A DNA stretch of 64,000 nt from NCBI RefSeq assembly GCF_963675165.1, contig NC_087388.1, positions 1,776,800 through 1,840,799 of the forward strand, written 5' to 3'. This document shows, one piece after another, positions 633-61,507 of this stretch; position 1 is the first letter of the stretch; every line of letters starts with the position of its first letter. The position numbers and the translations under genes were made by a program. The notes beneath the pieces were generated by a model. That model was not told where the DNA came from. It ran no database searches and was given only the letters and a program-made list of their open reading frames with translations. The stretch comes from Halichondria panicea (lineage: Eukaryota; Porifera; Demospongiae; Suberitida; Halichondriidae).

Positions 633-735
633 ACTAACCGTTAGAAACAGTGAAAAACCATTTATTAACGTTACGTAAAGGTTATATCACGTGATCCACA
701 CAGCGCTATACAGTGCAGTAAAGTACGTGAAATGC
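633..735 (+). repeat. Left unique part of MULE terminal inverted repeat
   Basis: Aligned by eye to the complement of 12378-12480, this region differs at only a few positions and includes the shared segments AACCATTTATTAAC, TATATCACGTGAT and CAGCGCTATACAGTGCAGTA. After about 725 the left copy has a short extra stretch, and then both ends enter the repeat arrays, where the similarity goes on. Confidence 0.9.
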
Positions 736-749
736 ATGAGAGCTAGAGA

Positions 750-2660
750 GTGTTCATTGGTGTGTATGTGTCTGTGAGTGTTCACTAGTGTCAGCCAGTG
801 ATCATGGGTGTATGCCAGTGTTTACTAGTGTGTGTCAGTGTATGCCAGTGATCATGGGTGTATGCCAGTGATCATGGGTGTCCGTGAGTGTTCGCTGGTG
901 TCTGCCAGTGATCATGGGTGTCTGTGAGTGATCATGGGTGTCTGCGAGTGTTCGCTGGTGTCTGCGAGTGTTCGCTGGTGTCCGTGAGTGTTCACTGGTG
1001 TCTGCCAGTGATCATGGGTGTCTGCCAGTGATCATGGGTGTCTGTGAGTGTTCGCTGGTGTCTGCTAGTGTTCTCTGGTGTCTGCCAGTGTTCCCTGGTG
1101 TCCCTGAGTGTTCCCTGGTGTCTGCAAGTGATCATGAGTGTCTGTGAGTGTTCGCGGGTGTCTGCCAGTGTTCATGGGTGTCCATGAGTGTTCGCTGGTG
1201 TCTGCCAGTGTCTGTGAGTGTTTGCTGGTGTCTGCCAGTGATCATGGGTGTCTGCCAGTGATCATGAGTGTCTGCCAGTGATCATGGGTGTCTGCCAGTG
1301 ATCATGGGTGTCTGCCAGTGTTTACTAGTGTCTGTCAGTGTATGTCAGTGTCTATGGGTGTCTGTGAGTGTTCGCTGGTGTCTGCCAGTGTCTGTGAGTG
1401 TTCGCGGGTGTCTGCCAGTGATCATGGGTGTCTCAGGAGTGCCTGTGAGTGTTCTCTGGTGTCTGCCAGTGATCATGGGTGTCTGCCAGTATTCTCTGGT
1501 GTCTGTGAGTGTCCGCTGGTGTCTGCGAGTGTTCGCAGGTGTCTGCCAGTGATTATGGGTGTCTGTGAGTGTTCGCTGGTGTCTGCCAGTGTTCGCTGGT
1601 GTCCGTGAGTGTTCCCTGGTGTCTGCAAGTGATCATGAGTGTCTGTGAGTGTTCTCTGGTGTCTGCCAGTGATCATGGGTGTCTGCCAGTATTCTCTAGT
1701 GTCTGTGAGTGTTCGCTGGTGTCTGTGAGTGTTCGCTGGTGTCTGCGAGTGTTCGCAGGTGTCTGCCAGTGATCATGGGTGTCTGTGAGTGTTCGCTGGT
1801 GTCTGCAAGTGATCATGAGTGTCTGTGAGTGTTCGCGGGTGTCTGCCAGTGATCATGGGTGCCTGCCAGTGTTCGCTGGTGTCTGTGAGTGTTCGCTGGT
1901 GTCTGCGAGTGTTCGCTGGTGTCTGCGAGTGTTCCCTAGTGTCTGTGAGTGTTCGCTGGTGTCCGTGAGTGTTCACTGGTGTCTGCCAGTGATCATGGGT
2001 GTCTGTGAGTGTTCGCTGGTGTCTGCGAGTGTTCGCTAGTGTCTGCGAGTGCTCACTGGTGTCCGTGAGTGTTCCCTGGTGTCTGCAAGTGATCATGAGT
2101 GTCTGTGAGTGTTCGCGGGTGTCTGCCAGTGATCATGGGTGCCTGCCAGTGTTCTCTGGTGTCTGTGAGTGTTCGCTGGTGTCTGCGAGTGTTCGCTGGT
2201 GTCTGTGAGTGTCGCTGGTGTCTTTAAGTGAGTGAGAGTGTCTGCAAGTGTTCGCTGGTGTTTGCCAGTGTCGATGTGTGTCTGTGAGTGTTCGCTGGTG
2301 TCTGCCAGTGATAATGGGTGTCTGCCAGTGTTCGCTGGAGTCTGTGAGTGTCGCTGGTGTCTTTAAGTGAGTGAGAGTGTCTGCAAGTGTTCGCTGGTGT
2401 TTGCCAGTGTCGATGTGTGTCTGTGAGTGTTCGCTGGTGTCTGCCAGTGATCATGGGTGTTTGCTAGTGTCTTTGAGTGTTCCCTAGTGTCCTTTGGTGT
2501 CTATGAGAGTTCACTGGAGTCTGCTAGTGTCCCTCGGTGTCTGTGCATGAGTGTTCCCTGGTGTCTGCTAGTGTCCCTCGGTGTCTGTGAGTGTCTCGGT
2601 GTCCGCATGAGAGAGTCTGTGAGTGCATGTTCCCTGGTGACTGCGAGTGAATAAGAGTGT
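750..2660 (+). repeat. Left subterminal array of ~20-bp repeats
   Basis: About 95 units of a 20-bp motif, mainly GTGTCTGCCAGTGATCATGG and GTGTCTGTGAGTGTTCGCTG variants, run with near-perfect 20-bp register and occasional slips. Each unit keeps AGTG and GTGTCTG cores, and many contain the palindrome TGATCA. Several open frames of 60-110 codons run through it in both directions, but these only reflect a unit with few stop codons. The array is the inverted counterpart of 10750-12375. Confidence 0.93.
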
Positions 2661-2894
2661 CAGCAATTGTATATGTACTTATAGTATCTAGTTCAGTCAG
2701 TGAAGTGCATGCCCTACGCCTAGACAAGTTGCATGGGCGGAGTCCAACCAACTACGTCTAGACTATGATTATGAATGCATGTGTCCACAATGTAACTATA
2801 GAATCAAGAATGGACAAATATGAATCCAGTAGTAAGCAATTAATGCACTATAGAGTATAGTTTAGTTTAGTCAGTTCAGTTCACAATGAGCAGT
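2661..2894. other. Short non-coding spacer inside the MULE
   Basis: About 230 bp between the left array and the stop codon of the minus-strand NTPase gene. It presumably holds that gene's 3' untranslated region. A sequence at 2731-2756 (GGGCGGAGTCCAACCAACTA) weakly resembles the TIR tip of the 318-bp MITE at 260-577. Nothing else is seen. Confidence 0.4.
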
Positions 2895-5800
2895 TCACAA
2901 TTTTCGTTTCACTCTGTCTCTTGTTGTTGACTTTGGATGAAAGAAATCCGAAAGACTGTCGTGTAAAGCCAACTCGCGAGAATGTTTGCCCAGTTTGGCA
3001 CTAGAACTTGGAGATATGATCACATCGCTAGGCAAAGGAGTGGCCACAGCAGAAGTGGAACTTGGAGATATGATCACATCGCTAGGCAAAGGAGTGGCCA
3101 CAGCAGAAGTGGTGACAGAGGATACGACAGGAGTGGTATTCACGTGCACAGTTGCAGCTACAGCAGGAGTGGTGACGGAGGATACGGCAGGAGTGGTGAC
3201 GGAGGATACGACAGGAGTGGTATTCGCGTGCACAGTTGCAGCTACAGCAGGAGTGGTGACGGAGGATACGGCAGGAGTGGTGACGGAGAATACGGCAGGA
3301 GTGGTAATCACGTGCACAGTTGCAGCTACAGCAGGAGTGGTGATGGAGGATACGGCAGGAGTGGTAATCACGTGCACAGTTGCAGCTACAGCAGGAGTGG
3401 TGACAGAGGATACGGCAGGAGTGGTGACAGAGGATACAACAGGAGTGGTATTCACGTGCACAGTCGCAGCCACAGCAGGAGTGCTGGGAGTTGTAGTCAC
3501 AGCTATATAAAAACAAAAAAAGTGTATATTATTACTGGTATATAACATGCAGAATAATGTCATGCACATAATTATAATTATATCAAGTGTATTGTATATG
3601 TAACAGTCAGATAACATACCAATCTTTAGTTGTTTGACAAGTTTTGGTGGCCATCTTTTATCATCAACAAAAATAGCCAAGCAGCTCCTCCTTACAGTGT
3701 TTTTGTTTGGTTGAAAGGCCGTGTCTGTACAACCAAGCTTGAGGAGAGGCCTCTTGATACCACCCCTGCCTAATTTTAATCTCCTGATAGTGAGACTAAA
3801 ATCCTCATCAATGTGAACCAGCTCATTTACTCTGCTCATCCACATGACCACAACTGGACGCCTTTCTAGAGTAGAACTCCTCATGAATGCCAAAACCTAT
3901 ATGACAAAAATGTAATGCATATATGCACAAAAATAATAATAATTATATAGATATAATTATAGTCCCTTCAATTGCATATTTTAATGGATCTCATTAATTG
4001 GTCAACAGCATGTACGATAATATAGAAGATATACCACAGCTATACTTGGAGCCTATATACATGCATGCATGCATAATACATTTATAACTCGTGCATGCAT
4101 GTGCATACCTCGTGTTTTTGCAGTGTAGCTGTGACCAAGCAGATGCTCTGCACTGTTTCGAAGAAACTTGAGGCTGAGCACGAAGTTTGTGATTTGGCTG
4201 TTGTTGATTGAACTCTTTTTGATGCTTTGTGTACAATGAAGTGCATCGCCTCAGCAACAATAGTACTAACACACTCGGCCTGCATGAATAATACTGGAGT
4301 ACGGCACAAGTATATACCATGCATGCATATTTTTATCATTAAGTATCCACGCAGGCTGACAATGATGCATGTGTTCTAATTTTAAACCGCACCTACAACT
4401 TATAACAGATTAGAAAGTACCTTGTTGCATTCTTCATCACCATCCTCTTCTTTCTGCAGCTCATTTGTATCACTTTCGTACACCATGTTGATAAACTGCA
4501 TATACATGATGATTAACAGACACGTAATAAATTAAAAAGGGCCATGCATGCCAGTACATTGCTAAAATTCTTACAAATGCACGTGTAACATATATATATA
4601 TACCTTCTCCAGAAAGTAGAAGGAGATTGCCCAGCTCAAAACATTACGGGAGACCATAGAGTGGGACTCACTTCCCTGGAGGTCTTCCCTGATCTCCTGA
4701 ATTCTCTCTTCACCACTTTCCAGCATTGTCTTACCCTGTCTGATGATCCATCCGACAAGGGATGAGTACTTCCCACTTTCACAAGCTCTCTGGAAATCCC
4801 CGTACACAGTGCATTCCTCTGCCGTTACTGGCCCACAAGAGGGGAGCTCAAATGGGATCAGGAGTACTCTGGATAGCACTCTGCATGTATATATAGTGTA
4901 TATATAGTGTAAATAGCTGTTGTATAACCAAGAGTGCATGACACTGCATGCATTTACTATAATGACGACAATTAATAATAACAGTGCATGCCTGCAACTA
5001 TAATAAAACAATTGGCACCCACCTGTCCATCTCGTCTGCTCCAAAGTTTGTAGCGACAATGGGAATGCTGAATGGCTTGCGTGCACCGCTTCTCAGATTT
5101 ATAGTTTTCTGCCCATTGTAGAGGTCGATACACAGCTCCCCTAAATCCAACTGGTTCGACCGTGACCCCCTACTTTTGGTAGGATCGTCTATGCCATACG
5201 GCAAGGTGGATCTGGAAGATCGCTCTAGCATTCCAGCATTCGTCCCCTTGGAACAAATTCCATTATGAGCACAACCAAAGAGTGCAAGTGCTGCCTTTAT
5301 AGCAGTCGATTTGCCAGTCCCTGATTCTCCTGTCGCAACCGTAACAGCACAACCACCGTACTTGTCTATGACTGTACGGTAGTGGAAGGACATCACAGCA
5401 CCTGATACAACCAACAACCCAGGAATAAGATTATGATTGAGACACTTCTTCAAATTAAGGAAGAAATCGACAGCACTGGAAAGGCTCAGTGGTTTCCGGA
5501 CAACAGCTGTCACATCATCCATCATAATCTTGTCACTCTCCATTATTGACTCTCTCTTCAACCAGACATGAGGATTGGATACTTCCGCTACTTCCTCTCC
5601 ATTTGAATCTAGAAAGCATTTTGAATTCATCGCAAAAATTCCGGATTGTTGTTGACCAGACACCATTACTGCTTTCTTGGTTTGTAGACCACCTTGAACA
5701 TTGCGTTTCAGAAACTGCACAAAGAATGCCACATGGTTATTTGACTCAAAACCGCAGGACATCGCTCCAGGTCCGAAGGAGTAGTTTATTTGATCAATAA

Positions 5801-7089
5801 ACTTGTTCTTTGCATTTAGAGAACTGGCTGTGAAAAAACATTCCCTGAAAAAAGGAAAAACATTACACATTACAGTGACTATCAATACAGGTTGCACACT
5901 ATACCACAAAGGTTAACCCTGCATGGAGCATAATGCAAGCTTAATACCTTAAAGGTGGTACACCTCAACACCACCTATATCAATACAGGTTGAACACACT
6001 ATACCACAAAGGTTAATTAATTACCCTGGAGCATTGAGCATAATGCAAGCTTAATACCTTAAAAGTGCATGGTACACCTCAACACCATGCAGGTACTCTT
6101 TTAAAGTTGCTGTGAGGGAAAGGTCTGTGGAAAGGACATTAACACTTGTACTAAATGTAACTATGGTTTTAGATAGCTATACCTTGTTAGTTCTAGTGAT
6201 AGCTTTAGTTGCCTGACCTTAGTTCTGTATTAGGTTCTAGAAACTTTTCTAGTTGTCTGTAAATAGCATGACTTTTGTGTGTCTCTGTCAGACTGTGTGT
6301 ATACTGATTCCGATTGTTGTTACCTGAACCTCTGTCTGTCTGATCTATAGCTAAGCTAACCGGAGGCTTACACCCCCTGCCACAAGGTGTAGTGTGACGT
6401 TTCAGTGAACAGACCACAAGAACCACACTGAGTAGCAGGTCAAGGGTGTGTTCTTCTCAACTGATAGAGCAAACCAACCACTGGCCACTATAGCTAATTA
6501 CTTAGTCTATAGGGAATTACAATTTAAAGCAAAGGTATATCCTAGTCTATATACATGCATGCATTTCAGATTTGTACACATTATCTACTACAAGTAACAC
6601 ACCTGCTTAGGTTTTCTTCAGCATCTTGTTCCCTTTTTACAAGGACGAAATAGCCAGTGTTGGTACCAGCCTCAGCGATGTACAACAGCTTCATAGCAAA
6701 ATCGTTCAGGATGTGTTTCACCCCCTTTGATGTAATGGTGCCCGATACCCCTTTCTCCCAATCATTGAAAAAGGACACTTTTGCTTGCACCTGCAATCAC
6801 ATCAATGAAGCAACAAACTCATAACCTCAAGTAATATTTATAGTCGTGTCGTGTTTTATGTAGCATAATTAGAACACACATGCAGTTACACACATGCATA
6901 AAATTATAATTATACATGATGTACTTACATTCATAATACCATGATAGTGTAAATTACCTTAGTATCTTCATACTGTTGACTACCAGCTTGACTAGCAGAC
7001 GAGAATGAGACAAAGGAGGGGGAGTCAAGTAGTGAGGCATGACTACTGGAGTCGAAAGCCGATTGTTCATCATCACCATCAAAGTCCAT
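2895..7089 (-). CDS. MULE-borne P-loop NTPase, ~849 aa, 8 exons
   Basis: Exons by GT-AG rules and continuous phase: 7089-6958, 6790-6603, 5844-5023, 4880-4604, 4495-4421, 4279-4109, 3896-3620 and 3502-2895. The total is 850 codons with the stop. A clear Walker A motif GESGTGKST lies near residue 278. It is followed by a TLPYGIDDP segment that may supply the acidic Walker B residues, so an AAA+/helicase-like ATPase is likely, somewhat like the DUF927 group; I cannot name the family. The N-terminus is Ser/Asp-rich. The C-terminal ~150 residues are Thr/Val/Pro-rich tandem repeats, ending in a basic tail (KRKL). It is transcribed away from the transposase across a 284-bp gap. A role as transposition partner, in the way MuDR carries a second gene, is inference. 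A cargo role is the alternative. Confidence 0.8.
3030..3490 (-). repeat. Coding minisatellite in the NTPase C-terminus
   Basis: Units of about 24-66 bp encode variants of TTPAVSSV and TTPAVAATVHV, repeated across the last exon. Before the array (on the minus strand, after it) lies a twice-repeated unit encoding SAVATPLPSDVIISPSS. Other frames are also open here because the unit lacks stops. Copy number is probably variable between element copies. Confidence 0.85.
5876..6095. repeat. Tandem duplication within an NTPase-gene intron
   Basis: Two adjacent copies of a ~115-bp segment sharing GCATAATGCAAGCTTAATAC, the CTCAACACCA stretch and the ACACTATACCACAAAGGTTA stretch. It lies wholly within the intron between exons 2 and 3. 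Confidence 0.6.
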
Positions 7090-7373
7090 AGCAAATAGAC
7101 ACACTGACACACAAGTAATAGAAACTTGGCAAAGGAGTAGCAAATATAGCACGAAATCCGAATGAAATGTCAACAACTAGCTATCTTGTAACAACTAAAT
7201 CCTTGCAATCTGCATGCCTAGTGCCTCTTGCGCATGCGTTTCCTTCCACTTCCTGAAATTCCTGTGGGAATACTATACAATTTGTTTTTTGTGCGGGAGA
7301 TAGCCGGTGAATTGATTTCATGCAAGAGTCAAGTTGATAGTCAAGTTGAAAGTCGTTTAAGAGGTATTACAAC
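7090..7373. promoter_or_regulatory. Divergent promoter region of the two MULE genes
   Basis: The 284 bp between the NTPase start codon (7089, minus) and the transposase start codon (7374, plus) must contain both promoters. GCGCATGCG-type palindromes occur near 7230. No clear TATA box could be assigned. Confidence 0.5.
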
Positions 7374-10300
7374 ATGCAGAGCAGTGATGCAAGTGACTCT
7401 CTCCTCAACTTTCACACTACATCCCAATCCTCCCAACAGAGCAGTGCGAGTGCCTCTACTAGTGCCCAACAAAGCAGTGCGAGTGCCTCTACTAGTGCCC
7501 AACAAAGCAGTGCGAGTGCCTCTACTAGTGCCTCTCTCCTCAACCAATCCCAACAGAGCAGTTTAAGACTCAGTGTAAGTGACTCTATCCCTCATCAACT
7601 TCCAAACTAGTCTCAATCAATCCCATGCATGTGATCCCCCCAACAGAGCAGTGAGAGTGCCTCTACTAGTGCCACTAGTGCCTCTCTTCTCAACCAATCC
7701 CAAGAGAGCAATTCAAGCAGCCTCAGTGCAAGCATAGATGCAAGTGACACTCCCCGGCGAAAGAAATTCCTTTGCTCAGTTTGTAACTCCAGCTATGCCT
7801 TCCAAACTGGTCTCTCCAGACACATTAAGGACAAGCATCGAGATAATAGTGATGACTATTTACAATGCCAATTCTGCGAAAAAAGGTATATGAACTAATT
7901 ATTGTAGACCTAATATTTAAATGTATACGGAGTGAGTCTATAATTATACGGATCTATTGTTATATATAGTCACGTGTTCATCATTATTTACTTAGTTTTG
8001 CAACATCAACAAAATGTGATGGGGTTGCCGCTCTATAATGTGATGAGGCTATTATAAGGTGCATTCCATATTAAGAGCTTTTTGTGGGGATGTTTGTTCA
8101 AAATTCTTTTTTTGTGATAATTATTACGTTTAGTCTCATTTCAACTGAAGTTTTTGGGACCTGTAGGTTCAAAACTATATCAAGTCTATCCACTCATATG
8201 GGGACAAGTCATAAAGAAAATGTTCTGATAAAACACGATTCTTTCAGTGACGTTGCAGCATTTCATGAATGGAAAAGTAAAGAAGAAAGGCAAACACAGT
8301 CCTCATTTGTACAGTCGTGTGGAACAAAGCGAACAAAAAGCACTGAGTATACTTACTATTACTGCAACAGACAGGGACATTTTTGCTCACGATCAAATGG
8401 CAAACGTGTTATGAAATCACAGGGTACCTGCAAACTGGTGGAACATTGCACAGCATATATTAAAATGACCAAATGTGTTACTGACGGTACCGTGTCTATA
8501 CAATATTGCACCAGCCATTCTCACGAAGTTAATATTGGACACCTCCGCCTTCCGAATGATGTGAGAGTTTCTATTGCCACAAAGCTTCAAGATGGAATCC
8601 AATCTGATAAGATATTGGATCAGATACGAGACAATGTATCTCCGAAAACACTAGGAAGAGAACATCTCATAAGTAAGCAAGATATCCACAACATTGAGAA
8701 GCAATTTTGTGTAGATGGAGTACAGAAACACCTAAATGACTCCCAGAGTGTAAATGCATGGGTACAAGAGCTTCACTGTTCTGAGTACTCTCCTGTGCTT
8801 TTGTATAAAATGCAGGGAGTAGAAGATGTGGCTATCGGAACAACTTCTGCATTTAGCAGAGATGATTTTGCCCTATGCATTCAGACAAAATTCCAATGCG
8901 ATATGCTATCAACGTTTGGGAAGAACGCAATATGCATAGATTCTACACACTCTACTAATCAGTATGATTTTTTACTAAACACGATCATGGTGATTGACGA
9001 GTTTGGCGAGGGGATACCAGTTGCTTACTTGATAAGCAACCACGAAACTGGAGCAGTTATTGAGGCATTCTATGAGGCAATAAAATGTCAAGTTGGCATG
9101 ATTGAACCTTTGGTTTTCATGACTGATGATGCACCACAATACTTTACCGCTTGGCAAAATCAATTCGGGCGTAACTCTCGAACACAAAAACTGTTGTGTA
9201 GATGGCACTTAGACAAAACTTGGAGGGGAGCTATACGTGAGAAGGTATCTAGCGACCTTCAACCAGAAATTTATCGCTATTTATTGGTGTTACTACATGA
9301 AACAACATTAGCAGAATTTAACAAAAAACTACAACAATTTCTAAGTTTTTTGAAGGAAAAGAAACAGCATTTGTTCCTGGAATACTTTCAGAAAAATTAC
9401 TGTAATCGTACAAGCCAATGGGCAACTTATGCAAGATGCTACACAAGTGTAAATACGAACATGCACATAGAAGCTTTCCACCGTCTTGTAAAAACTGTTT
9501 ACTTTCAGCAAAAACAAAATAGGAGAGTAGATGCACTTTTGAACGTTCTTCTGAAATTGGCCAGAGACAAAGCATTTGAACGACTCATCAAGACTGAGAA
9601 GGGAAAGCTCACTCACAAGATTTCAGAAGTGAACAAGAGGCACACAAGTGCAGAGAAAGTGAGTGAGTGCACTACTGTGACATCAATATCGCAAGATCAC
9701 TGGACCATAAAATCAGCACAAGGCCAGAGCAGCTATACTATCAAAAAGTCTTCGCCACAAGCATGCTCTTCTTGTCCACTCAAGTGTTCCCACTGTGGAG
9801 TGTGTATGCACATGTATTCATGCACATGCCTTGATAGCATATTGCATAGTACAGCCTGCAAACATGTGCACTTAGTGCACATGCACATGCAGCAACAACT
9901 CAGTTGTACAGAACAATCTGATGAGCAATCTACGGGTGATACACTCAATCAGTCTGACAATGAGGAATACTCCACAACATTTCCTCAATATTTGGAAAGA
10001 ACAAATTCAGACAACAAATTTCTTACAGAATCGCTTGTCACTACTTGCAGGGAAATACAGCAGATTATTCCGAGTATATCGAACATAGCTGCAAAGAGAG
10101 CCGCTAACAAACAATTGAAATCAACTCTATCTCTACTTAAAGCTTCGATTTCAAGTGAAAATGTTACGCTGCAACCTACAAGGAAGTATGCAGCAAATAA
10201 GCACCATGAGAAGCAACAGAGGTTTTACTCAACAAGACAGAAAAAAGCAAGTACATCAAGTAGATGGAGTAAACCAACTGCAGAAGAGCAGGTATCCATC

Positions 10301-10474
10301 AGCAATGAACTAGCCACAATTGAAGTTAAGTTTTGCGGTATTTGTTTTAAGGAAGATGACGGTAACTCTGAATGTGACTTCAATGAATGGGTTGAATGCT
10401 GTGGGTGTGATATCTGGATACATACAACTTGTAGTAGCAAACGTGGTGACTTAGAATTTTGTCATTTTTGTTGA
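7374..10474 (+). CDS. MULE transposase with C2H2, SWIM and PHD fingers, ~915 aa
   Basis: Exons 7374-7574, 7647-7885 and 8167-10474 join in phase with GT-AG introns (72 and 281 bp). The first intron removes an in-frame TGA. The second splits a zinc finger cleanly. N-terminus: Ser-rich, including a threefold ~33-bp repeat. Residues ~127-175: two C2H2 fingers (CSVC..H...H and CQFC..H...H). MULE DDE core: Asp in ICIDSTH (~405), Asp in FMTDDAPQY (~466), the CRWHLDKTW Cys/His motif, and Glu in NMHIEAFH (~581). SWIM finger: CTC then CKHVH (~697-718). PHD-type C4HC3 finger at the extreme C-terminus. It should cut and paste the element by binding its ends. The catalytic triad is complete, so it looks active. 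Confidence 0.92.
7434..7535 (+). repeat. 33-bp coding tandem repeat in transposase exon 1
   Basis: Three nearly identical units encode QQSSASASTSA. A related fragment is found again after the first intron (7641-7700), so that intron lies inside an older, longer repeat. Confidence 0.85.
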
Positions 10475-10749
10475 TAGTATAGATAGATCTAATTATGTAT
10501 ATATACACATCATCATATTAAATAATTATGACATAAATGTTATTGACAATTACAGTCTTAAGGATTTTTCAGTAACTTTGTGATGGACAGCCATACTCTG
10601 CGGTCCTCCACACTCTGCGGTCCTCGATCGGGGATTAAGTCACTACAGTGCCATAGACTTGCAACCTGTAATGTTAGTAAAGAGAGAATAGATTTAATTA
10701 AATGTATATACTATATGTACTGTCTCTCTGTATTGATTAACACGGACAC
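10475..10749. other. Non-coding spacer after the transposase
   Basis: It holds the presumed transposase 3' untranslated region and a short direct repeat (ACTCTGCGGTCCTC twice, about 10595-10626). No gene is seen. Confidence 0.4.
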
Positions 10750-12375
10750 TGAGACACTCTCACTCAGTCGCAGAAATGCATGCAGGAACTCACAGACACC
10801 TTGGAACACTTGCAGACACTCTCAGATACCGAGGGACACTAGGGATACTAGAATACACTGTCACTCACTCAAAAACACCAGTGAACACTCACAGACACCC
10901 AGGAACACTCATAGACACTGGCAGACACTCTCATTCACTTGCAGACACCAGCAAACATTGGCATACACCCATGATCACTGGCAGACACTCAGGAACACTC
11001 GCAAACACTCTCACTCACTCGCAGACACCAGCGAACACTGGCATACACCCATGATCACTGGCAGACACTCAGGAACACTCGCAAACACTCTCACTCACTC
11101 GCAGACACCAGCGAACACTGGTATACACCCATGATCACTGGCAGACACTCAGGAACACTATAACAAACACTCTCACTCACTCGCAGACACCAGCGAACAC
11201 TGCATGGCATACACCCATGATCACTGGCAGACACTCAGGAACACTAACAAACACTCTCACTCACTCGCAGACACCAGGGAACACTCACAGACATCGAGGG
11301 ACACTAGCAGACACCAGTGAACACTCACAGACACCCAGGAACACTCATAGACACTGGCAGACACTCTCACTCACTTGCAGACACCAGCGAACACTGGCAT
11401 ACACCCATGATCACTGGCAGACACTCAGGAACACTCGCAAACACTCTCACTCACTCGCAGACACCAGCGAACACTGGCATACACCCATGATCACTGGCAG
11501 ACACTCAGGAACACTAACAAACACTCTCACTCACTCACAGACACCAGGGAACACTCACAGACATCGAGGGACACTAGCAGACACCAGTGAACACTCATAG
11601 ACACCCAGGAAAACTCATAGACACTGGCAGACACTCTCACTCACTTGCAGACACCAGCGAACACTCACAGACACTAGCGAACACTCGCAGACACCAGCGA
11701 ACACTCACAGACACCCATGATCACTGGCAGACACCAGTGGACACTCACGGACACCAGCGAACACTCACAGACACTAGCAAACACTCGCAGACACCAGCAA
11801 ACACTCACAGACACCCATGATCACTGGCAGACACCAGTGAACACTCACAGACACCAGCGAACACTCAGAGACACTAGAGAACACTCGCAGACACCAGCGA
11901 ACACTCGCAGACACTAGAGAACACTCGCAGACACCAGCGAACACTAGCAGACACCAGCGAACACTCACAGACACCCATGATCACTGGCAGACACCAGTGA
12001 ACACTCACGGACACCAGCGAACACTCACAGACACCAGCGAACACTCACAGACACCCATGATCACTGGCAGACACCAGTGAACACTCACAGACACTAGAGA
12101 ACACTCGCAGACACCAGCGAACACTCACAGACACTAGAGAACACTCGCAGACACCAGCGAACACTAGCAGACACCAGCGAACACTCACAGACACCCATGA
12201 TCACTGGCAGACACCAGTGAACACTCACAGACACCAGCGAACACTCACAGACACCAGCGAACACTCACAGACACCCATCGACACTGGCATACACTGACAG
12301 ACACTAGTAAACACTGGCATACACCCATGATCACTGGCTGACACTAGTGAACACTCACAGACACATACACACCAA
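10750..12375 (-). repeat. Right subterminal array of ~20-bp repeats
   Basis: About 80 units such as ACACCAGCGAACACTCACAG and ACACCCATGATCACTGGCAG, the complement of the left array. Higher-order blocks of roughly 150-240 bp recur at 10920-11640, showing duplication of groups of units. Open frames of up to 184 codons through it are artefacts of the repeat. Confidence 0.93.
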
Positions 12376-12377
12376 TG

Positions 12378-12480
12378 AACACTCATTCACTTTACTGCAC
12401 TGTATAGCGCTGTCTGAATCACGTGATATAACCTTTACGTAATGTTAATAAATGGTTTTTCACTGTTTCTAATGGTTAGT
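12378..12480 (-). repeat. Right unique part of MULE terminal inverted repeat
   Basis: Inverted partner of 633-735. The last bases, AATGGTTAGT, abut the TTCTTTTTG target duplication (12481-12489). Confidence 0.9.
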
Positions 12481-12952
12481 TTCTTTTTGTAACAGGTACT
12501 TGTATATTACAAGCGCAAATCGTTTCTAAAACAGTAAAACATCGAAGAAGAATCATCTGAAGTCATGGGAAAAGACTATTACAGCATACTTGGTATATCT
12601 CGAGGGGCATCACAAGATGAAATTAAGAAAGCTTACAAAAAGATGGCACTAAAGTATCATCCTGACAAAAACAAAGATCCAGGAGCAGAGAACAAATTCA
12701 AAGAAATAGCTGAAAGTTATGAAGTTCTCAGTGATCGTAAGTAAAAATATAACTGGCTACACTGCACCGATAGCACTCGTTACTTTTTAGTGTCGCCTTA
12801 GTACGGTATGCTTACCTTGGCATGTACATGAGATGCGTATTCCTTACGATTATTCCTACTCATTACTTCTTCAGCAAAGAAGAAAGATGTCTTTGACAAG
12901 TTTGGAGAGAATGTACTGAAACATGGTGGAGGTGAAAGTGCTGAATACAACT

Positions 12953-14898: not shown

Positions 14899-17379
14899 TT
14901 GGAGGAATGGCCGCAGTATGTGGAGAGACTCGAACAGTTTTTTGTTGCGAACGATATCACTGGAGATGGTAGTGCTGTGAAGAAGAGAGCTACCTTTCTC
15001 GCAGTAGTGGGCCGTAGTGCCTACAATCTGCTGCGAAGTCTAATTGCACCAGCAAGGCCTGCAGAGAAAACATTTGAGGAGCTGGTGGAAGTGCTTACTG
15101 CACACTACAGTCCGAGGCCTACCGAAGTCATGCAACGTTTCCGATTCAACTCTAGAGCGAAGAAAGAAGGAGAGTCTATTGCTGACTATGTAGCTGTGCT
15201 GAGGAAGCTAGCCGAATTTTGTAATTACGGTGCTGCATTGGACAAAGTGCTACGTGACAGGCTAGTGTGGGGAGTCAAGGACACCTACATACAGAAGAAG
15301 CTGCTAGCAGAACGAGAGCTGACATTGGCTACGGCTATTCAGATTGCTCAAGGTTCTGAGACTGCAGAGAAGAACCTTCGTGAGATGGGAAGCGAATCCC
15401 ATAAAGAAGGAGTACATTACGTCCAGAAACAGACGCCGAAACCGATTAAAACTAACTCGAAGTGTTATCGATGTGGCAAGACGAGTCACAGTGGCAATGA
15501 CTGCCCGTACAAGGACTTTGTGTGTAGAGGATGTCATAAAGTGGGACACTTGCAAAAGATGTGTCGAGCTGCCAAGGGACGCCCAAACCCGAAGAAGTTC
15601 CCCCGACATGACAAGTATAAGAAAAGGGCTGGAATAAACCAAGCAAGAGAGTCTGGAGAATCAGATGACGAAGACTTCCTGCTGATGGTAGAAGAAGTTG
15701 GAGGAATCCACAGGATCTACCAGCCCCCAATAAAAGTACCCGTGAGTATAGAGGGTACTACTGTGTGTATGGAACTAGACACAGGTGCCTCAGTATCTCT
15801 AGTATCAGAGTCACAGTACAAACAGTTGTGGCCAGGGAGGAGCTTAGACCCATCTGATATCAACTTACAGACCTACTCAAAGGAACCCCTTGTAGTAATG
15901 GGAAGTTTTGATGTTGAGGTTGTGTATGATAACAAAAAGGTGACCTTACCTCTTGTTGTTGTTCAAGGGAATGGACCTTTGTTGTTTGGCAGGAACTGGC
16001 TAAATGCTATTAAGTTGAATTGGTCTAACATTCACTATACCCAAGCTCCAGGTTTACAGGACTTACTGGCCAAGTACCCCGATGTGTTCCAGAAAGGACT
16101 GGGTACGTACCAGGGACAAGAAGCCTCCCTTGTAGTGGACGCTGATGCTGTTCCCCGTTTTAACAAAGCCAGACGTCTTCCATATGCTATGCGAACGAAA
16201 GTTGAAGAGGAACTGGAGAGGCTGGTTCAGGAAGGCACTCTGAAGCCCGTGGACTATGCTGAATGGGCCGCACCAATTGTGGCAGTGTTAAAGAGTGATC
16301 GAACGAGTGTGAGAATATGTGGCGATTTCCGAATGACAGTTAACCCCGTTTCTAAACTCCATCGTTACCCCCTGCTGAAGGTGGAAGATTTATTTGCAAC
16401 CCTGGCTGACGGAAAGATCTTTACTAAATTAGATCTGACACAAGCTTATCAACAGTTAAAGCTTGACACCCAATCTCAGAACTATGTGGTAATCAACACC
16501 CTAAAAGGGTTGTTCCAATACACGAGATTACCTTTTGGAGTGTCATCAGCCCCTGGCATTTTTCAGAAGACCATGGAGACCCTGCTACAGGGTATTGCTG
16601 GGGTAGTGGTGTATTTGGACGACATTTTGATCTCTAGTGCAACCGAAGCGGAGAACCTGAAATCACTCGAGGAAGTGTTGAAACGCCTATCCGAAGCTGG
16701 TTTGCGAGCCAAACGAGGCAAGTGCACGTTCATGGCTCCATCTGTCGAGTTTTTGGGTCACCTGGTTGACGCTAAGGGTATCCGACCCTTACCTGAGAAA
16801 GTCCGTGCTGTCCAGCAAGCACCTACCCCTACCAATGTGACGGAACTGAGGTCCTACATTGGATTGATTTCTTATTATGGGAAGTTCCTACCGAATCTAG
16901 CCACTCGCTTAACACCATTGTACAAGCTGTTAAACAAAGATGTGCCATGGGAATGGTCATCTGAGCAAGAACTTGCTTTTAACAGGTCGAAACAGCTGCT
17001 GACATCAACAAATCTGTTAGCTCATTACAACCCCCAATTACCTATTGTTCTGGCCTGCGATGCCTCTGCATACGGAATTGGAGCCGTACTTGCTCACCAA
17101 ATGCCTGATGGTACCGAGAGACCGATAGCCTATGCTTCTAGGACTTTGAATTCGGCTGAAAGAAATTACTCGCAGCTTGAAAAGGAAGGACTGTCCTGTG
17201 TTTTCGGAGTAAAGAAATTCTATGCATACCTATTTGGTCGAAAATTCACTCTAATTACGGATCACAAACCGTTATTGAGCCTGCTGAGTGGACAGAAACC
17301 AACCTCATTACAAGCCTCCGCAAGGATTCGTCGATGGTCATTGGCACTGTCGATGTACGAGTACGAGCTGAAGTTCTGA
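14899..17379 (+). CDS. Gypsy gag, protease, reverse transcriptase and RNase H
   Basis: An 826-residue frame. Gag-like helical region first. Two CCHC zinc knuckles follow (CYRCGKTSHSGNDC and CRGCHKVGHLQKMC). The aspartic protease motif is LDTGAS. RT has the YLDDIL catalytic box. RNase H starts LACDASAYGIGAVL. The frame stops at a TGA (17377-17379) inside the usual RNase H-integrase connector. The same frame resumes downstream, so gag and pol form one fused frame with no frameshift signal. The true gag start may lie upstream of 14899. Confidence 0.9.
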   Translation: MEEWPQYVERLEQFFVANDITGDGSAVKKRATFLAVVGRSAYNLLRSLIAPARPAEKTFEELVEVLTAHYSPRPTEVMQRFRFNSRAKKEGESIADYVAVLRKLAEFCNYGAALDKVLRDRLVWGVKDTYIQKKLLAERELTLATAIQIAQGSETAEKNLREMGSESHKEGVHYVQKQTPKPIKTNSKCYRCGKTSHSGNDCPYKDFVCRGCHKVGHLQKMCRAAKGRPNPKKFPRHDKYKKRAGINQARESGESDDEDFLLMVEEVGGIHRIYQPPIKVPVSIEGTTVCMELDTGASVSLVSESQYKQLWPGRSLDPSDINLQTYSKEPLVVMGSFDVEVVYDNKKVTLPLVVVQGNGPLLFGRNWLNAIKLNWSNIHYTQAPGLQDLLAKYPDVFQKGLGTYQGQEASLVVDADAVPRFNKARRLPYAMRTKVEEELERLVQEGTLKPVDYAEWAAPIVAVLKSDRTSVRICGDFRMTVNPVSKLHRYPLLKVEDLFATLADGKIFTKLDLTQAYQQLKLDTQSQNYVVINTLKGLFQYTRLPFGVSSAPGIFQKTMETLLQGIAGVVVYLDDILISSATEAENLKSLEEVLKRLSEAGLRAKRGKCTFMAPSVEFLGHLVDAKGIRPLPEKVRAVQQAPTPTNVTELRSYIGLISYYGKFLPNLATRLTPLYKLLNKDVPWEWSSEQELAFNRSKQLLTSTNLLAHYNPQLPIVLACDASAYGIGAVLAHQMPDGTERPIAYASRTLNSAERNYSQLEKEGLSCVFGVKKFYAYLFGRKFTLITDHKPLLSLLSGQKPTSLQASARIRRWSLALSMYEYELKF

Positions 17380-37105: not shown

Positions 37106-39309
37106 TTAGTTCTTCTTATAATCAGAAATCCTCGTGAGGTCAAAACCGGCACCTCCATAATCAGGATTGTTGATTTCTGCCGACTGTACACTGGTGTAGA
37201 GGGTGTTCTCAAACTCATGATCAGTCATGGTTGATCTCATCGTACTCGTGTTGGCTAGCTTTGTGGATGTAGTTCGTTCCAAAGTGTTGTCGGGGATACC
37301 GTACGCTGGGTTGTCTCCATGTATCTCACCATTAGGGAAGTATGTAGCAACGATGGCTGTATATATGGTAACAGAGATCAAGGTAAAACTAACATTGTAT
37401 ATGGATCTATGTGCCGTATGCATACACATACATTATTATATTGTCACTACGAATTAACTGATATTCGCCCATGATAATTAATTATAGGCTCCCTGTTCAC
37501 TGGATGTAACACATTACTAATGTACAACTTCCAGACCTTCGATAACTGCACTTACATTTCTTTTTCCTTACAAGACAGGCAATCACCACTAGCAAAGAGA
37601 TGATGATCAACACTAGCAGAAGCAGTGCAGCCGTTATCCCACCCACCAGTGCCTCTATGACAACTCCATCCCCAAATCCTATCGAAAAATCAATTGAAAT
37701 AGTATGACTGGGTTACGTTGCTCACAAAATAAATGTGGGTACGTACTTTTTGATTGCATATCCGGGCAGTGGCTACACAGTTCTCCAGTGAATCCAGGAT
37801 TGCAATCACATGTGAAGTTAGTTTGTCCGTTAACACAGCGACCGTTTCTGTTACAATTCACACCATAGCAATAATCAATCCTCTCACATAGCGACCCAGT
37901 GAACGGAGGGTCACAGTTACAGGAGAATGAGTTTACGCCATCGATACACGTACCGAGTCCATTGCAATCTTGATTCACGCAATCGTCAATGTTAGTTTCA
38001 CAGTTCATACCTGTGAATCCAGTATTGCAGACACAGGTATATGAATTGAGCCCATCAATACATTTACCACTTCCACTGCAAATTTGAAACTCACAGTCGT
38101 CAACATTTGTGTTGCAAGTAACACCAGTATACCCAGCATCGCATACACAAATATAAGAGTTGATTCCATCCATACACAGTCCTTTACCACTGCAGTTTTG
38201 ACTATCACATTCGTCAATATTTGTCTCACAGTTTGACCCAGAAAAACCTGGTGCACACTCGCAATGATAAGAGTTGATTTCATCAATACAGCGGCCATTA
38301 CCACTACAATTCTCATCTTCACAATCATCAATGTTTCTCTCACAATCAATCCCAGTATAGCCAGGATTACAGTCGCAAATGTGTGATGATTCTTCGTTGG
38401 TGCATATTCCATTTCCATTACAAGACTGTCCAAAGCAATAGTCTATCAACTCACAATTTTCTCCCATGAAACCATCATTACAAACACAGGTATAGCTGTT
38501 CATCATCTTAACACACATGCCACTTCCATTGCACATGATGCTATCACGTTCACACACATCAACAAACTGACATTGTTCTCCATGGTAAATTGTTGCACAG
38601 TGCACTCTAACAATCAGACTCATCTTTCCGTAATTGTGAACTCCTGATACGTTAGTCAGTGTTAAGCCAGCACTGTTGAGAACGTTGCTGCGTAGTTGGA
38701 CTGTAATTATATCAACAAGATCATCGGAATCACTTTCCTGAGAATCCCTATCTATCACTCCTACATACAGCTGGATACCATTCTGAAATGGAAGTTTAGT
38801 AACGTTCATACTTTTGTTGTTAGCAAAACTATCTTACCCAAAGTTGGTCATCAGTCAGTGTTATCATATTAGGTCCAGTTGAAGTGAATTCAAGAGAATC
38901 ATCATTCAAGACAATGTCTGTAGTAAACATTTGTGGTGCCATGCATCCACTTGTTTCTGTAGGTGGAGTACTGAATGGACGCAAACAGAATGTGAAGAAG
39001 TTATCACAGAGCTCATCTTCAGTACATATTCCATCATTCGAAAGATCACTGTTTTCTGCTGGATCACAACATTCTCCATTGTTACCAGCTGCTCTACTCT
39101 CTGGGTTGTTGTAGGACCTGAGATTTACTTGAACCACATAGTCACACAGAGCTCTGTGGTCACTTAGCTGTACAGATTTTGTAACATAATTATTGAGCAG
39201 AATATTCTAGAATATTCTGCTATAGTGAGATCTAGTGAGATCTAGAGATCTGTGATTTTCTCACCATATAAATCACAAAGAAACAGAGGAGAGTAAAATT
39301 GTACCTCAT
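37106..39309 (-). CDS. Notch-ligand-like transmembrane protein, copy A (intact), 594 aa
   Basis: Exons 39309-39265, 39167-38838, 38782-37747, 37678-37556 and 37356-37106 join in phase (595 codons). Signal peptide MRYNFTLLCFFVIYM is its own exon. An MNNL-like domain follows (VNLRSYNNPESRA, CCDP, CDNFFTFCLRP, the pattern of Delta/Jagged N-termini). The start of a DSL-like motif (VHCATIYHGEQCQF) runs straight into EGF 1, so a full DSL is missing. Seven EGF repeats come next, most with calcium-binding NIDDC/NIDEC starts. The transmembrane helix lies in exon 4 (ITAALLLLVLIIISLLVVIA) with a RKKK stop-transfer. The ~80-residue tail has NPAY and NPDY motifs of the NPxY endocytic type. Likely a cell-surface ligand; receptor unknown. 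Confidence 0.85.
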
Positions 39310-40597
39310 CTTTTTAGTCCACTGGTAGAGGTGGTCTAGATCAGAGATTACTCTATCCCTGTCTAGATCTCTGTCTATATTCAATATTGTTGTTAATTTT
39401 ATGCGCATGTGCAAGTGCAAAAACAGAGGTGTGGCTGCATGGGTGCTTTTTCGCCATTCAATCTCTCTATCCCAGAATGAGTTTATCTCAATTGAATTGT
39501 ACACCCTCTTAGCAGTGGTGTATTGATGCTATCAAGAGGAGATGCGGCTGTGTACTGATTAAAGTAGTCATCCATACCGTCAAGAGCTCTGATACTCCTG
39601 ATGCCGTGAACTTATCATAATTATCCTCGGCTTTCATTCAAACTTTAGCAGGCAATGCAGGCAAAGTCATGCAGATAGAGAGTTTTATCTCCACCAGCTC
39701 TATAATACGTACATCACGTACTCTGTTTGTAAACACGCTCTCAATTAATTTTACCACTTTAAGTAAAAGATATCTTGTTAGTACACAAGATATATATTTT
39801 TTAGTATTGGATCTTTATACCAGTATACCATTTATAGGTAGTTGTATGCAGCTATATACTGTATAATATACTGTAATCAGTATAATAATGATTCAGTCTT
39901 CAGAGGATGTAGTCTGTAGACTAGTTCATCAAACATTCTGATGTGTGCTTGTAGAAGGAGCTGCTTTAGAGACACGTACTCTGGAAGAGGGCTATAGGGC
40001 TCAGGCTGAGCCTTGCTCACTAGCACTGCACGCACTGCACTAGGCATGTTCAGCTTCTGTACGTATTCAAAGAAAAAGAAACCGTAATGTAAGAGTGCTA
40101 TTCTAAGCTTACCTTTGCTCTGGCATAGCCGGGTCTATAGACACAGTCAGAATAAGTATATTTTTATTGGAATTACGTTGTTGTTATTAAAATTTTGTTA
40201 GTTTTCGATCATGTATAATTATGTATGGTGGCATGTTTACAGAACAGCGCTTTTAAGAAACAGGGGTTGCTACTTATCTACACATGTCAAGCACTTACAC
40301 TGAATATGCTTTATACCATGAATAAGGGTAGTGTGCCATGGTATACAATTATACTCACGCTTGCACAATGTATAAGTACCCAGCATGACTAATATAAGGA
40401 TGTATACTTGAACAAAATGCAATTAGTGAGAACATTCATAAAATGCAATAGCACAACTCAACAACTCAACTATTACTACTTTGAAAAAGCAAAAAAACAC
40501 TGGATAGTGTAATGTCACAAAACACAGAACACTGCATGATAATGTGTTGAAGGCTATAATTTTATAATAATTGTTCCTCACTGAAAAATGTTATCCT
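39310..40597. other. Spacer between copies A and B, shared with the E-F spacer
   Basis: 1.3 kb without a gene. Most of it is near-identical to 60230-60635 and 62010-62736 between copies E and F, so it was duplicated with the genes. Upstream regulatory sequence of copy A must lie at its left end. Confidence 0.7.
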
Positions 40598-43513
40598 TTA
40601 GAGTGAGAACTCCTTGAGATCAATATCTTCATCATCGGGATTGTTGACTTCTGCCAACTGTACACTGTCGTAAAGGGTGTTCTCAAACTCAGCAATGTCT
40701 GATCTCATCGTACCTGTGTTGGTTAGGTTTGTGGATGTAGTTTGTTCCAAGGAGTTGTCGGGGATCCCGTACACTTGGTTGTCTCCATGCATCTCACCAT
40801 TTGGAAAGTATGTAGCATTGATGGCTGTATGGCAACAGAGGGGCATATAGAACAAATAAACGTTGACGCACGTGTGTACACATGCACATTAATGTGACAG
40901 GCTCTGGGAAAACCAGACTATTGGAGCAGACCAAAATGTTGGTGATTAATGTACCAAGTGATAGAGCAGAGCATTGCCTACACAATGATATGCTTAGTGT
41001 TCACATACCTAGTTTCATACCCGAGTCATGCGCGTTGGAAACTCGAAGCCGTAAAATGTAGTATCGAGAAAACGGCTCTCAAAGATTGCTTAATTAGGAA
41101 AAATAAGGTAATAGCGAAAGTTTGGACGAAGCGTTTCGATGGAAAGAGTTGGATTTAGAGCATCATATTTTACAGAGAGGTAGTAGAAGGACTGTAGATA
41201 CTTATACATTAATAACATTTTATTTGAGATTTTATACTGTAGGCATAAATATAGCTGTAGCTCAATACCAAATTCTGCTCCAATAGTCTGGTTTTCCCAG
41301 AGCCTGTCACATTTATCGATAGTTTCAATACAAGCAATTCTCCTAAACATCAATAATGATAATCCACACAGGCGCTAATGTTTGGAATTCTCCCAATACC
41401 TATAAATGGTTGTCACAATTATAGGTCCTAATAAACAGTAGCATTGATGACTGTATGGCAACAGAGAGATGTATGGAACAAATAAATGTTAATACTTGCG
41501 TGTATGTACACATTTATCTATGCTTTCTACAGTATAACTGTCAATACAAGCAATTCCGAATCAAATAGGGCCCTAATAAACATCGATGTTTATGGACTCT
41601 CCAAAGCAACCAATGCCTAATCGTGTTTGTCATTATTATAGGAAACAATAACTCTAGTATACATGTCTATAACATTGTAAGGGAATATTTGATAACACAC
41701 ACATGCATGCACTCACAATTCTTTTTCTTTACAAGGTAGGCTATCGCCACTAGCAACAAGATGATGATCAACACCAGCAGAAGCAGTGCAGCCGTTACTC
41801 CACCCAGCAGTGCCTCTATGACAACTCCATCCCCCACTTCTGTAGGAAAAATGTATGTTACGCTTAGCTAACCTTCCTCTGTCTCTATTGTATATTATGT
41901 CAGGAATTGCTCACAAATACGTACACAATGTAATGTACTGTATGTACCATTTAATTGCATATCCATACTACACAGTTCTCCAGTGAATCCAGGATTGCAA
42001 TTACAAGTGAAGCTAGTTTGTTCGTTAACACAGCGACCGTTTCTGTTACAATTCACACCATAGCAATAATCAATCCTCTCACATAGCGACCCAGTGAACG
42101 GAGGGTCACAGTTACACGAGAATGAGTTTATGCCATCGATACACGTACCTATAGTCCATTACAATCTTGATTCACGCAATCGTCAATGTTAGTTTCACAG
42201 TTCATACCTGTAAATCCGGTATTGCAGACACAGATATAGGAATTGATTCCATCCATACATTCACCACTTCCGCTGCAATTCTGAAACTCACAATCGTCAA
42301 TGTTTGTGCTGCAATTATCACCAGTATACCCAGCAAAACATACACAAGCATACGAGTTGATTCCATCCATACATTCACCATTTCCGGTACAATTTTGAAA
42401 CTCACAGTCGTCAAAATTTGTGTTGCAATTAACACCAGTATACCCAGCATCGCATACACAAATATAAGAGTTGATTCCATCCATACACAGTCCTTCACCA
42501 CTGCAGTTCTGACCATCACATTCGTCAATATTTGTCTCACAGTTTGTCCCAGAAAAACCTGGTGCACACTCGCAATAATAAGAGTTGATTTCATCAATAC
42601 AGCGGCCATTACCACTGCAATTCTCATCTTCACAATCATTAATGTTTATCCCACAATCAATCCCAGTATAGCCAGGATTACAATTGCAAATGAATAATAA
42701 TTCTTCGTTGGTGCATTGTCCATTTCCATTGCAAGACTGATTAAACCATTCACACGCATAAAAAACTGACATTGTCCTCCATAGTGAAATGGTGCACAGT
42801 ACACTTTAGCAGTTAGAATAATTCTTCCATGATTGTGATTTCCTTGTATGCTGAACGTTAAACCGGCAGCACTGGCACTGTTGATCTGAAGGATACCAAG
42901 TGGGATCGTGATTGTATCAACCAGATCATCCTGGGTACCATTATCTTTATCAACCACCATCACAAACAGCTGGATATTATTCTGAAATTGAAAGCAAAAT
43001 CGTGATACAAGTAATCAGTTTACACGAATTTTTACCTGCCAAGAGCCGTTAATTGTCCATGTTAGTGGATTGGGTACTCCAAAATCAGTTGAGGTGAAAT
43101 TTAGAGAATCGCTATTAGGGATGATGTTAGTAGTGATTGTTGGTGATTGCGATGTAAAACATTCTGTATTAACTTGTCCGCTTGGTCGTAGACAGAACGA
43201 GAAGAAATTATCACAGAGCTCATCTTCAGTACAAATTTCATCATTCGAAAGATCACTGTTTTCAGTTGCTGGATCACAACATTCTCCATTGTTACCAGTT
43301 GCTCTGCTCTCTGGGTTGTTGTAGGACCTGAGATTTACTTCAACCACATAGTCACACAAAGCTCTGTGGTCACTTAGCTGTACAGATTTTTTAAGATTGA
43401 AAGGTATATTCTTAGAGTAGATCTAGTATAGCTACCTATATAGGGCCTACTATATAGGGGTTTCTCACCATATAAATTGCAAAGAAATAGAGAAGAGCAA
43501 AATTGCACCTCAT
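40598..43513 (-). pseudogene. Notch-ligand-like copy B, probably broken
   Basis: Same five-exon plan: 43513-43469 (signal peptide), 43377-43036 (MNNL-like), 42981-41948 (EGF exon), 41839-41717 (transmembrane) and 40824-40598 (tail). The EGF exon has two lesions relative to copy A. After the DSL-like GGQCQFF the frame changes and EGF 1 is missing. Near 42148-42155 an extra pair of bases brings a stop in the EGF NQDCNGL segment. The tail ends NNPDDEDIDLKEFSL, without the NPxY tyrosine of copy A. Splicing around the second lesion is conceivable (a GT follows it), so inactivity is not proven. Confidence 0.72.
40894..41310. mobile_element. 417-bp MITE in copy B, absent from copy F
   Basis: Inverted ends of about 37 bp (GTGACAGGCTCTGGGAAAAC and its complement). 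The matching intron in copy F (around 63025-63035) lacks the whole segment and shows a single short target instead. Flanks ATTAAT and ATTTAT may be a diverged target duplication of 6-8 bp. Confidence 0.8.
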
Positions 43514-43940
43514 CTTTGTATTTCACTTTAGTAGTTCTACATAGACTGCAATGCAGTCTTAACAGAGGCGTGGCTCTGGGCTCACCAGTATGCTGTTGCA
43601 ATGTTGATTGCCTGCATCCTATGGTGATATAACTCAAAATTATGTAATCTGATTAATTAAAAAGAAAACTGCCAAGCCGGATAATCGAGGTTCCGGATAA
43701 TCGAGGGCCGGATAATCGAGGTTCTACTGTATCACTTCTTGGAAATAACATTAAACACGTGTCTCAGTTTTACGACAATGCTGTAATTAAACAGGATCTG
43801 TTATTGTTTACTAACAGAGCTTACAAGTGTGCAGCTGAAAACAGTTCTCTCGCCAATGGCAGATCTTAGTTTGTCTTCCATGTACATTACGTGTGGGTTT
43901 GAACAATGGAGAACTATATGGTGCATATTATGAGTGCTGC
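43514..43940. other. Spacer with pogo-like repeat tip
   Basis: No gene. At 43675-43735 the 14-mer CCGGATAATCGAGG occurs three times, once truncated. The complement with TAGAACCTCGATTATCCGG resembles the tips of pogo/jerky-type transposons as I recall them; only one end is visible. Confidence 0.4.
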
Positions 43941-45028: not shown

Positions 45029-45096
45029 GAGTGCTGCATGTTTGATTCAGGGCCTGTGGTTTTTATAGAAACAGTGATTGCAACTTATCTCCACAA

Positions 45097-45440
45097 GCAT
45101 GTACTTATATGCACCTATCAATTTCAATCCCCACTACCCCCCATGCGGGCCGGGGGTATGTCGGGGTTTAGTGGGGATTTCGTTTGCATCAATATCAACA
45201 GCCCACCCCTGGGGGCCGGTTGAAATCAATTTCCCACTTCCCCTCCCATACCCCCACTTAGTAACCCTGGGATTTGACTCGCACGTGTGCATGTGCTACA
45301 CTTTTCCGGATATTTACTGTTGTAAGTTTGTACACTGAGGAAGTCAAATTCCCCACCCTATCCCGTACCTCGGGGTTACTTGCTGAATCAAAACCCCACT
45401 ATGCCCCGCCAGGGGGTAGTAGGGACTGACATTGATAAGT
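45097..45440. mobile_element. GC-rich MITE, copy 1 (partner 50016-50267)
   Basis: Ends GCACCTATCAATTTCAATCC and its diverged complement form a TIR. Both strands of the inside are rich in CCCCACTA and GGGGT-type short inverted pieces. A second copy in the ankyrin-ROC gene's first intron shares both tips. Confidence 0.7.
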
Positions 45441-45761
45441 GCATTACGCTTAACATAATTATGCATGAACTATTGAACAAGGGCAGTGTATATATAATTT
45501 ATTATAATCAAAGTGCCTATAATAATAATATTATATAACTCACTTGTTAATTAAGGCTTATAGCACAATGTAAGCCCATGCAGCATGACTTAGATCGATG
45601 TAATGCAATTAGTAGAAACAGAAAAAAAAAACAGCATGCACGGCTCAACTACATTACTACTTTTAAAAAGCAAATTACTTCATAGTGTAATGATCACAAA
45701 ACACTGATAATTATGTTGAAGGGTATACGTTTGTTCTTCACTGCGTGAGCCTGAAATGTTA

Positions 45762-61460: not shown

Positions 61461-61507
61461 TAGTATGGGATCTCTTTATACCAGTATTTATAGGTAGTTG
61501 TATGCAG

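Follow-up and report, generated by a model that had tools for sequence, protein, structure and literature searches.

A transposase is generally considered to be nearly all that a eukaryotic cut-and-paste transposon requires. A 64,000-nucleotide stretch of the genome of the sponge Halichondria panicea (assembly GCF_963675165.1, contig NC_087388.1, positions 1,776,800 to 1,840,799; hereafter the window) contains at positions 633-12480 a complete transposon of the Mutator type (Mutator-like element, MULE), which is very large at 11,848 bp and which carries a gene for an ATPase in addition to the transposase gene, both enclosed by inverted satellite-like arrays. A sister family of this element is present in multiple copies, and across the genome the ATPase is found repeatedly together with transposases and arrays. 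The ATPase and the arrays look like a module that is common to two types of transposase, and the pairing of the ATPase with both types suggests an exchangeable helper module. We tentatively favour, at slightly less than even likelihood, the reading that the element is a cut-and-paste, satellite-ended (Rehavkus-like) MULE whose head-to-head DUF927/primase-helicase-like ATPase loads on the arrays.

Anatomy of the element and its sister families

The outer ends of the terminal inverted repeats (TIRs) lie exactly at 633 and 12480 (ACTAACC...GGTTAGT), and a perfect 9-bp target-site duplication (TSD) stands on both sides of the element, within the range of 8-11 bp that is used to recognize MULEs. 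Two mutually inverted arrays (∼1.9 kb on the left and 1.5-1.6 kb on the right) follow directly inside the TIRs, and alignment of the left and right arms gave 1455 identities over 1904 columns. The bounds of the arrays are approximate (∼724-2640 for the left and ∼10850-12380 for the right, the latter beginning at 10781 according to Tandem Repeats Finder). The two genes are arranged head-to-head between the arrays and neither model contains an internal stop; the start codons and splice sites are predicted, with GT-AG at every junction. The features are as follows.

624-632, no strand: left TSD, TTCTTTTTG
633-724, + strand: left TIR, identical to the right TIR at 88 of 92 bp
724-2640, + strand: left satellite array, 10-bp unit GTGTCTGCNA with a 20-bp higher period, core GTGT conserved at 94-98%
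2895-7089, - strand: predicted ATPase gene, eight exons, 849 amino acids (7089-6958, 6790-6603, 5844-5023, 4880-4604, 4495-4421, 4279-4109, 3896-3620 and 3502-2895)
7090-7373, no strand: divergent 5' region common to both genes, between the two modelled start codons
7374-10474, + strand: predicted MULE transposase gene, three exons, 915 amino acids (7374-7574, 7647-7885 and 8167-10474)
10850-12380, - strand: right satellite array, unit GTGTCTGCNA and core GTGT, inverted with respect to the left array
12389-12480, - strand: right TIR
12481-12489, no strand: right TSD, TTCTTTTTG

From its position between the start codons, the region 7090-7373 is a putative bidirectional promoter. A preliminary description of this DNA had recognized a MULE that is complete and of giant size, with two divergent genes and satellite-like ends, and the matching TIRs, the perfect TSD, the inverted arrays and the two open models bear it out. 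It had also named an assembly join within 633-12480 as a ground for refutation; such a join is unlikely because the window contains no N and the left and right arms are not identical. On these grounds and that of the seven sister copies described below, an assembly artefact was rejected.

The window element (family A) is nearly single-copy: a TIR search of the genome (131 Mb in 39 contigs) returned only its own two ends, and one partial copy at 94% was present among the fetched loci. TIRs occurring only once in the genome had been named in the preliminary description as a reason to abandon its proposal; family A comes close to this state, and the objection is answered by the multi-copy sister family B. 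Family B has the plan of the window element, with TIRs, inverted arrays, an ATPase and a MULE-type transposase. Its TIR gave 17 matches, of which 14 form seven complete elements and three are partial, these numbers being lower bounds. Across 4.8-6.0 kb of the gene region, identity to copy C8 is 98.8-99.8%. The TSD is perfect (9/9) in five of the seven copies; the flanks score 1/9 in copy C10a, which has a perfect 8-bp repeat instead, and 3/9 in copy C7a, which has no TSD. As a chance control, 42 cross-copy comparisons of flanks averaged 2.0/9 with a maximum of 5.

The transposase frame of family B aligns without gaps in two of the seven copies (C2a and C8). Copies C10a, C2b and C7a are each 11 bases short, and these three and C9 break at one place (query residues 425/434); in addition, C9 contains an insertion, and part of the interior is lost in C7b. 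The main exon of the ATPase is whole in five of the seven copies, with a part missing in C10a and a stop in C7b. The frame break common to several copies, together with the mostly whole ATPase exon, hints at a spread of family B in trans. Changes among the seven copies are few: the ATPase exon has two synonymous and three non-synonymous changes and one stop (ratio of non-synonymous to synonymous polymorphism, pN/pS, of 0.44) and the transposase has nine synonymous and 16 non-synonymous changes and no stop (pN/pS of 0.49).

Two further families, C and D, have arrays as well. The array units of the four families are 10, 9, 9 and 8 bp in length (9 bp in family B), with cores GTGT, GAGTC plus a later G, GGTAA and GTTCCA, each of which is kept in both arms. 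Conservation of the core per position is 0.88-1.00 over ten arms and is lowest in family B (0.88-0.95 in two of its four arms, with a T at 0.88 in the others). The arrays of families A, B and C have an alternating dimer structure, in which lag-2 identity exceeds lag-1 identity. A rare-variant test, for which family B was taken from copy C8 alone, supported a constrained core in family A alone, where variants are scarcer in the core. Elsewhere in the window, an element of ∼835 bp at 60632-61465 has the same anatomy in miniature with another repeat: TIRs beginning GGCGCTATATTAGTGCC, inverted arrays of 20-bp repeats just inside the ends, no recognized genes and a 7-bp flank match found by eye. 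Its interior has at least 66 matches in the genome (40 of 235 candidates were scored).

The transposase-like proteins of families C and D are 38% identical to each other, and neither gave a MULE match at E ≤ 1; a comparison of the MULE alignment with them using hhalign gave a probability of 1.1% and an E value of 0.049 over the D-D-[C/D]xxH stretch, and the transposase type of C and D is accordingly left unassigned. The protein of family D weakly matches OTU (E = 0.11) and otubain (E = 0.002), both below the cut-off, and tblastn detected its OTU-like region in C and C10b as well; among tabulated MULE groups, one from a cnidarian bears OTU (PMC6446971). No relatives of the family D transposase were found in scans of viral or prokaryote genome contigs. 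Family D is flanked by an 8-bp repeat, GGAAATTT, identified by eye, and its ATPase and transposase genes are tail-to-tail, in contrast to the head-to-head arrangement in the window element. The family C locus encodes a further P-loop protein (L031:5616-6773, - strand, TGTPGVGKT) with no Pfam match at E ≤ 1, which is perhaps a nested insertion.

The two proteins and their pairing across the genome

The predicted transposase contains C2H2 fingers, a MULE/DDE domain with CxxH, a cysteine-rich SWIM-like stretch and a C-terminal PHD-like finger. Its matches to PF10551 (MULE; E = 3.3e-9) and to the RNase H-like domain of ZSWIM1-3 (2.4e-10) both exceed the cut-off, and it thus carries the MULE/DDE domain. 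A search of 3984 candidates gave 80 relatives, and those with organism names come from beetles, an aphid, a leafhopper, a plant bug and a snail; one relative, P0002, shows 100% identity across the part that was searched and belongs to a different source record. No relatives of the window transposase were found in a scan of viral contigs. In an alignment of 23 sequences (A3; the window transposase, family B and 21 of the 80 relatives), all 23 match the MULE domain. The catalytic D, D and E are invariant or nearly so, as is the CxxH that separates the second D from the E: D289, E466 and C375 do not vary, and D351 and H378 are almost invariant. The C-terminus of the window protein matches PHD weakly (E = 0.065, below the cut-off), with C4HC3 spacing seen by eye, and five of the 23 aligned sequences match PHD at E ≤ 0.1, the best at 4.4e-6.

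The ATPase contains a Walker A motif, GESGTGKST, in exon 3 and has a repetitive C-terminus. Its conserved positions include the Walker A residues G195, T199, G200, K201 and T203, as well as D242-D243 and N289. An initial search found at least one relative among 8000 scored candidates, and an alignment search found 69 among 5994, including the protein of the window itself (P0082). The alignment comprises 54 sequences, namely that of the window and 53 of the 69 relatives, the 16 left out being mostly short. At E ≤ 0.1, 34 of the 54 match DUF927 (best 2.6e-6) and 30 match AAA_22; at E ≤ 0.01, 22 match the phage DNA primase phrog_1139 (best 2.4e-6), five the clamp loader phrog_168 and four the primase/helicase phrog_8841. 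An NCBIfam scan of the ATPase sequences gave two families only, with one matching member each, and no ATPase relatives were found in scans of viral contigs or prokaryote genome contigs. The relatives P0098 and P0119 lie above the DUF927 cut-off. Judged from these sequence comparisons, the window ATPase is related to DUF927 and primase-helicase ATPases and is not a member by the curated cut-off. The source records of transposase P0008 and ATPase P0104 are both 9711 long, which hints at pairing and does not prove it.

A search of the sponge genome with the ATPase yielded 30 exon matches, which we count as 24 loci. Fourteen of these loci were examined, namely the window and 13 others (the twelve with the best scores and one further locus), so that strong matches are favoured in the sample. 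A transposase lies within the fetched stretch at 13 of the 14 loci, and the possibility that the ATPase is a chance neighbour was therefore rejected. The transposase is of MULE type at nine loci (the window, the seven family B copies and C15), and another transposase-like protein takes its place at four (C1, C1d, C10b and one at C17); the remaining locus, a family A fragment at C17, has no transposase of its own. Inverted arrays are present on both sides at ten of the 14 loci (the window, the seven family B copies, C1 and C1d); the fetched stretch of C1 ends within the left array, and this locus contains 200 N.

By our grouping, no fewer than five families (A, B, C, D and C10b) contain the ATPase, and the protein of family A is 38% identical to that of B and 31% identical to that of C. 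In an ATPase tree built from 47 of the 69 relatives and the four families, with 22 relatives left out, D groups with A and B, and C lies across a branch with support of 100/100; D forms a long branch, the position of which among A and B is unsupported (85/16). One ATPase clade thus includes both MULE-type and other partners, so that at least one change of partner is needed. Such a change does not by itself show a conflict between the ATPase and transposase trees.

Comparison with described elements and rival explanations

The preliminary description could match the combination of features to nothing described, a claim that is half right. Rehavkus elements (Repbase) have a MULE-like transposase with a PHD finger, their TSD is 9 bp long and a minisatellite precedes the 3' TIR; they are placed in the MULE superfamily or as its outgroup, with hosts among arthropods and annelids (PMC6446971); Rehavkus-1_TC is 9.5 kb long and has a 164-bp repeat in its inverted termini (PMC10218199). 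Set side by side from the published descriptions, the two share the 9-bp TSD, the MULE-like transposase and the terminal minisatellite, the PHD match of the window protein lying below the cut-off. They differ in that the present element has a second gene, for the ATPase, whereas one open reading frame, perhaps not a defining trait, is tabulated for Rehavkus (PMC6446971), in its 10/20-bp units as against 164 bp, and in having a minisatellite at both ends, whereas the available text of PMC6446971 mentions one before the 3' TIR. Because this outline largely fits the element, satellite ends alone are not new, and it is the ATPase partner that stands out.

Other described elements share single aspects of this plan. 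Tetris and Galileo have tandem repeats inside long TIRs, with TSDs of 8-10 bp in Tetris; however, no Tetris copy bearing a transposase was found, Galileo belongs to the P superfamily, and the portion of PMC4079207 available describes no ATPase (PMC4079207). MuDR of maize and Hiun of Arabidopsis are MULEs with a transposase and one or more helper genes, but mudrB, vanB and vanC are not described as ATPases, nor are satellite ends mentioned, in the sections available (PMC6446971). Kolobok lineages are eukaryotic DDE elements with an accessory DNA-processing protein, such as the RecQ helicase in KolobokH, but belong to another superfamily (TTAA TSD), and their accessory proteins are, as described, different (PMC9587614). 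No transposon with such an ATPase was found in searches of the open-licence literature, most subscription papers lying outside that scope; the parts of PMC13359780, PMC6431247 and PMC10045372 at hand describe none of this kind.

A parallel for the ATPase comes from bacterial islands. The DUF927-containing Cch is described as related to the Rep helicase of SaPIBov1, and the Rep of Staphylococcus aureus pathogenicity islands (SaPIs) as binding iterons (PMC7581432). A DUF927-like core in most of the aligned ATPase relatives and short direct repeats in the element resemble the Rep/Cch systems of SaPIs and the staphylococcal cassette chromosome (SCC), although these are bacterial, SCC is moved by site-specific recombinases (PMC7581432) and the window ATPase falls below the DUF927 cut-off. 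On the reading favoured here, the transposase would cut and join at the outer TIRs, giving the 9-bp duplication, a cut-and-paste mode that the anatomy supports well. By analogy with the loading of Rep helicases at iterons, the ATPase would assemble on the phased 8-10-bp repeats, which number in the hundreds, and would there open or locally replicate the ends of the element or bring the two ends together. Such loading would account for the tendency of arrays and ATPase to occur together, and for the ability of the ATPase to serve two kinds of transposase. A bolder version, in which the ATPase and the inverted iteron-like arrays form a self-contained, exchangeable module for replication or end processing in animal DNA transposons that is used by at least two types of DDE transposase, so that these would be replicating transposons built like SCC/SaPI islands, appears doubtful.

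Several observations weigh against loading of the ATPase on the arrays. The window ATPase scores 13.3 bits against the curated DUF927 (PF06048) cut-off of 22.6 bits and gave no significant match to the PDB in sequence searches, the Pfam DUF927 model gave no match across its own genome, and neither a primase nor a polymerase was recognized in the element. Arrays are missing from one or both sides at four of the 14 loci (one array was found at C10b and no inverted arrays at C15 and two loci at C17). Rare variants show no clear deficit in the core in families B, C and D, so the cores may only reflect amplification of the arrays. Where transposase relatives carry an organism name, it is that of an insect or of a snail, whereas none of the ATPase relatives is named, and the transposase lineage may therefore not always need the ATPase. 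Furthermore, the repeat-binding experiments in the available text of PMC7581432 concern Cch2, from a helicase family other than DUF927, which makes the parallel with the present ATPase a loose one.

Three alternatives were considered, the likelihoods of which overlap and need not sum to one. The ATPase may be an AAA+ regulator like TnsC, MuB or IstB, all of which regulate transposition, picking the target or activating the transposase while the arrays are bound by the transposase alone. The AAA_22 matches, the pairing with a transposase at nearly all of the examined loci and the service of more than one transposase type all fit this explanation; however, the most-matched families are DUF927, AAA_22 and phage primase, no TnsC or IstB model is among the matches listed, and it leaves unexplained why arrays accompany the ATPase with both types of transposase. 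We regard it as unlikely, although it is the most probable of the three.

It is improbable that the element is simply a Rehavkus-like or foldback MULE, in which the arrays offer the transposase multiple binding sites, a role proposed for Galileo and Tetris, and the ATPase gene was captured and retained for stability or anti-silencing with no part in transposition. A link to transposase binding has been drawn for the repeats of foldback TIRs (PMC4079207), and gene acquisition is frequent among MULEs, one acquired gene being anti-silencing (PMC6446971). Against capture stand the recurrence of the ATPase in at least five families and with two transposase types, at the low identities given above, and its open frame in family A and whole main exon in most family B copies. 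Equally improbable, and compatible with either of the other two alternatives, is that slippage and unequal exchange in long TIRs generated the arrays as by-products that play no part in binding. The alternating dimers agree with this, as does the rare-variant test in B, C and D, which does not set the core apart from the remaining positions; the scarcity of variants in the core of family A does not, nor does the presence in four families of inverted arrays on both sides, with units of 8-10 bp and one core common to both arms in each.

Neighbouring features and implications

To the right of the transposon, the start codon of a DnaJ-like gene (named by eye) lies at 12565, 84 bases beyond the end of the element (12481-12565). 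On the left it is adjoined by a small element resembling a miniature inverted-repeat transposable element, with inverted ends of 50-60 bp at 260-320 and 520-580 and a possible 9-bp duplication, ACCTCTTTC, all read by eye. A retrotransposon-like gag/protease reading with zinc knuckles and an aspartic protease-like motif was noted by eye at 14900-16000. The segments 37500-49600 and 57400-64000 are duplicated, being about 80-97% identical, and contain 114-bp tandem repeats that resemble EGF-like coding repeats; they are probably a tandem gene family.

If the favoured reading of the transposon is true, loading of the ATPase on the arrays would provide a concrete and testable reason for satellite-like transposon ends. 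Such elements would also be a possible source of new satellite DNA, and animal transposons would be linked to the replication-initiator logic of bacterial islands.

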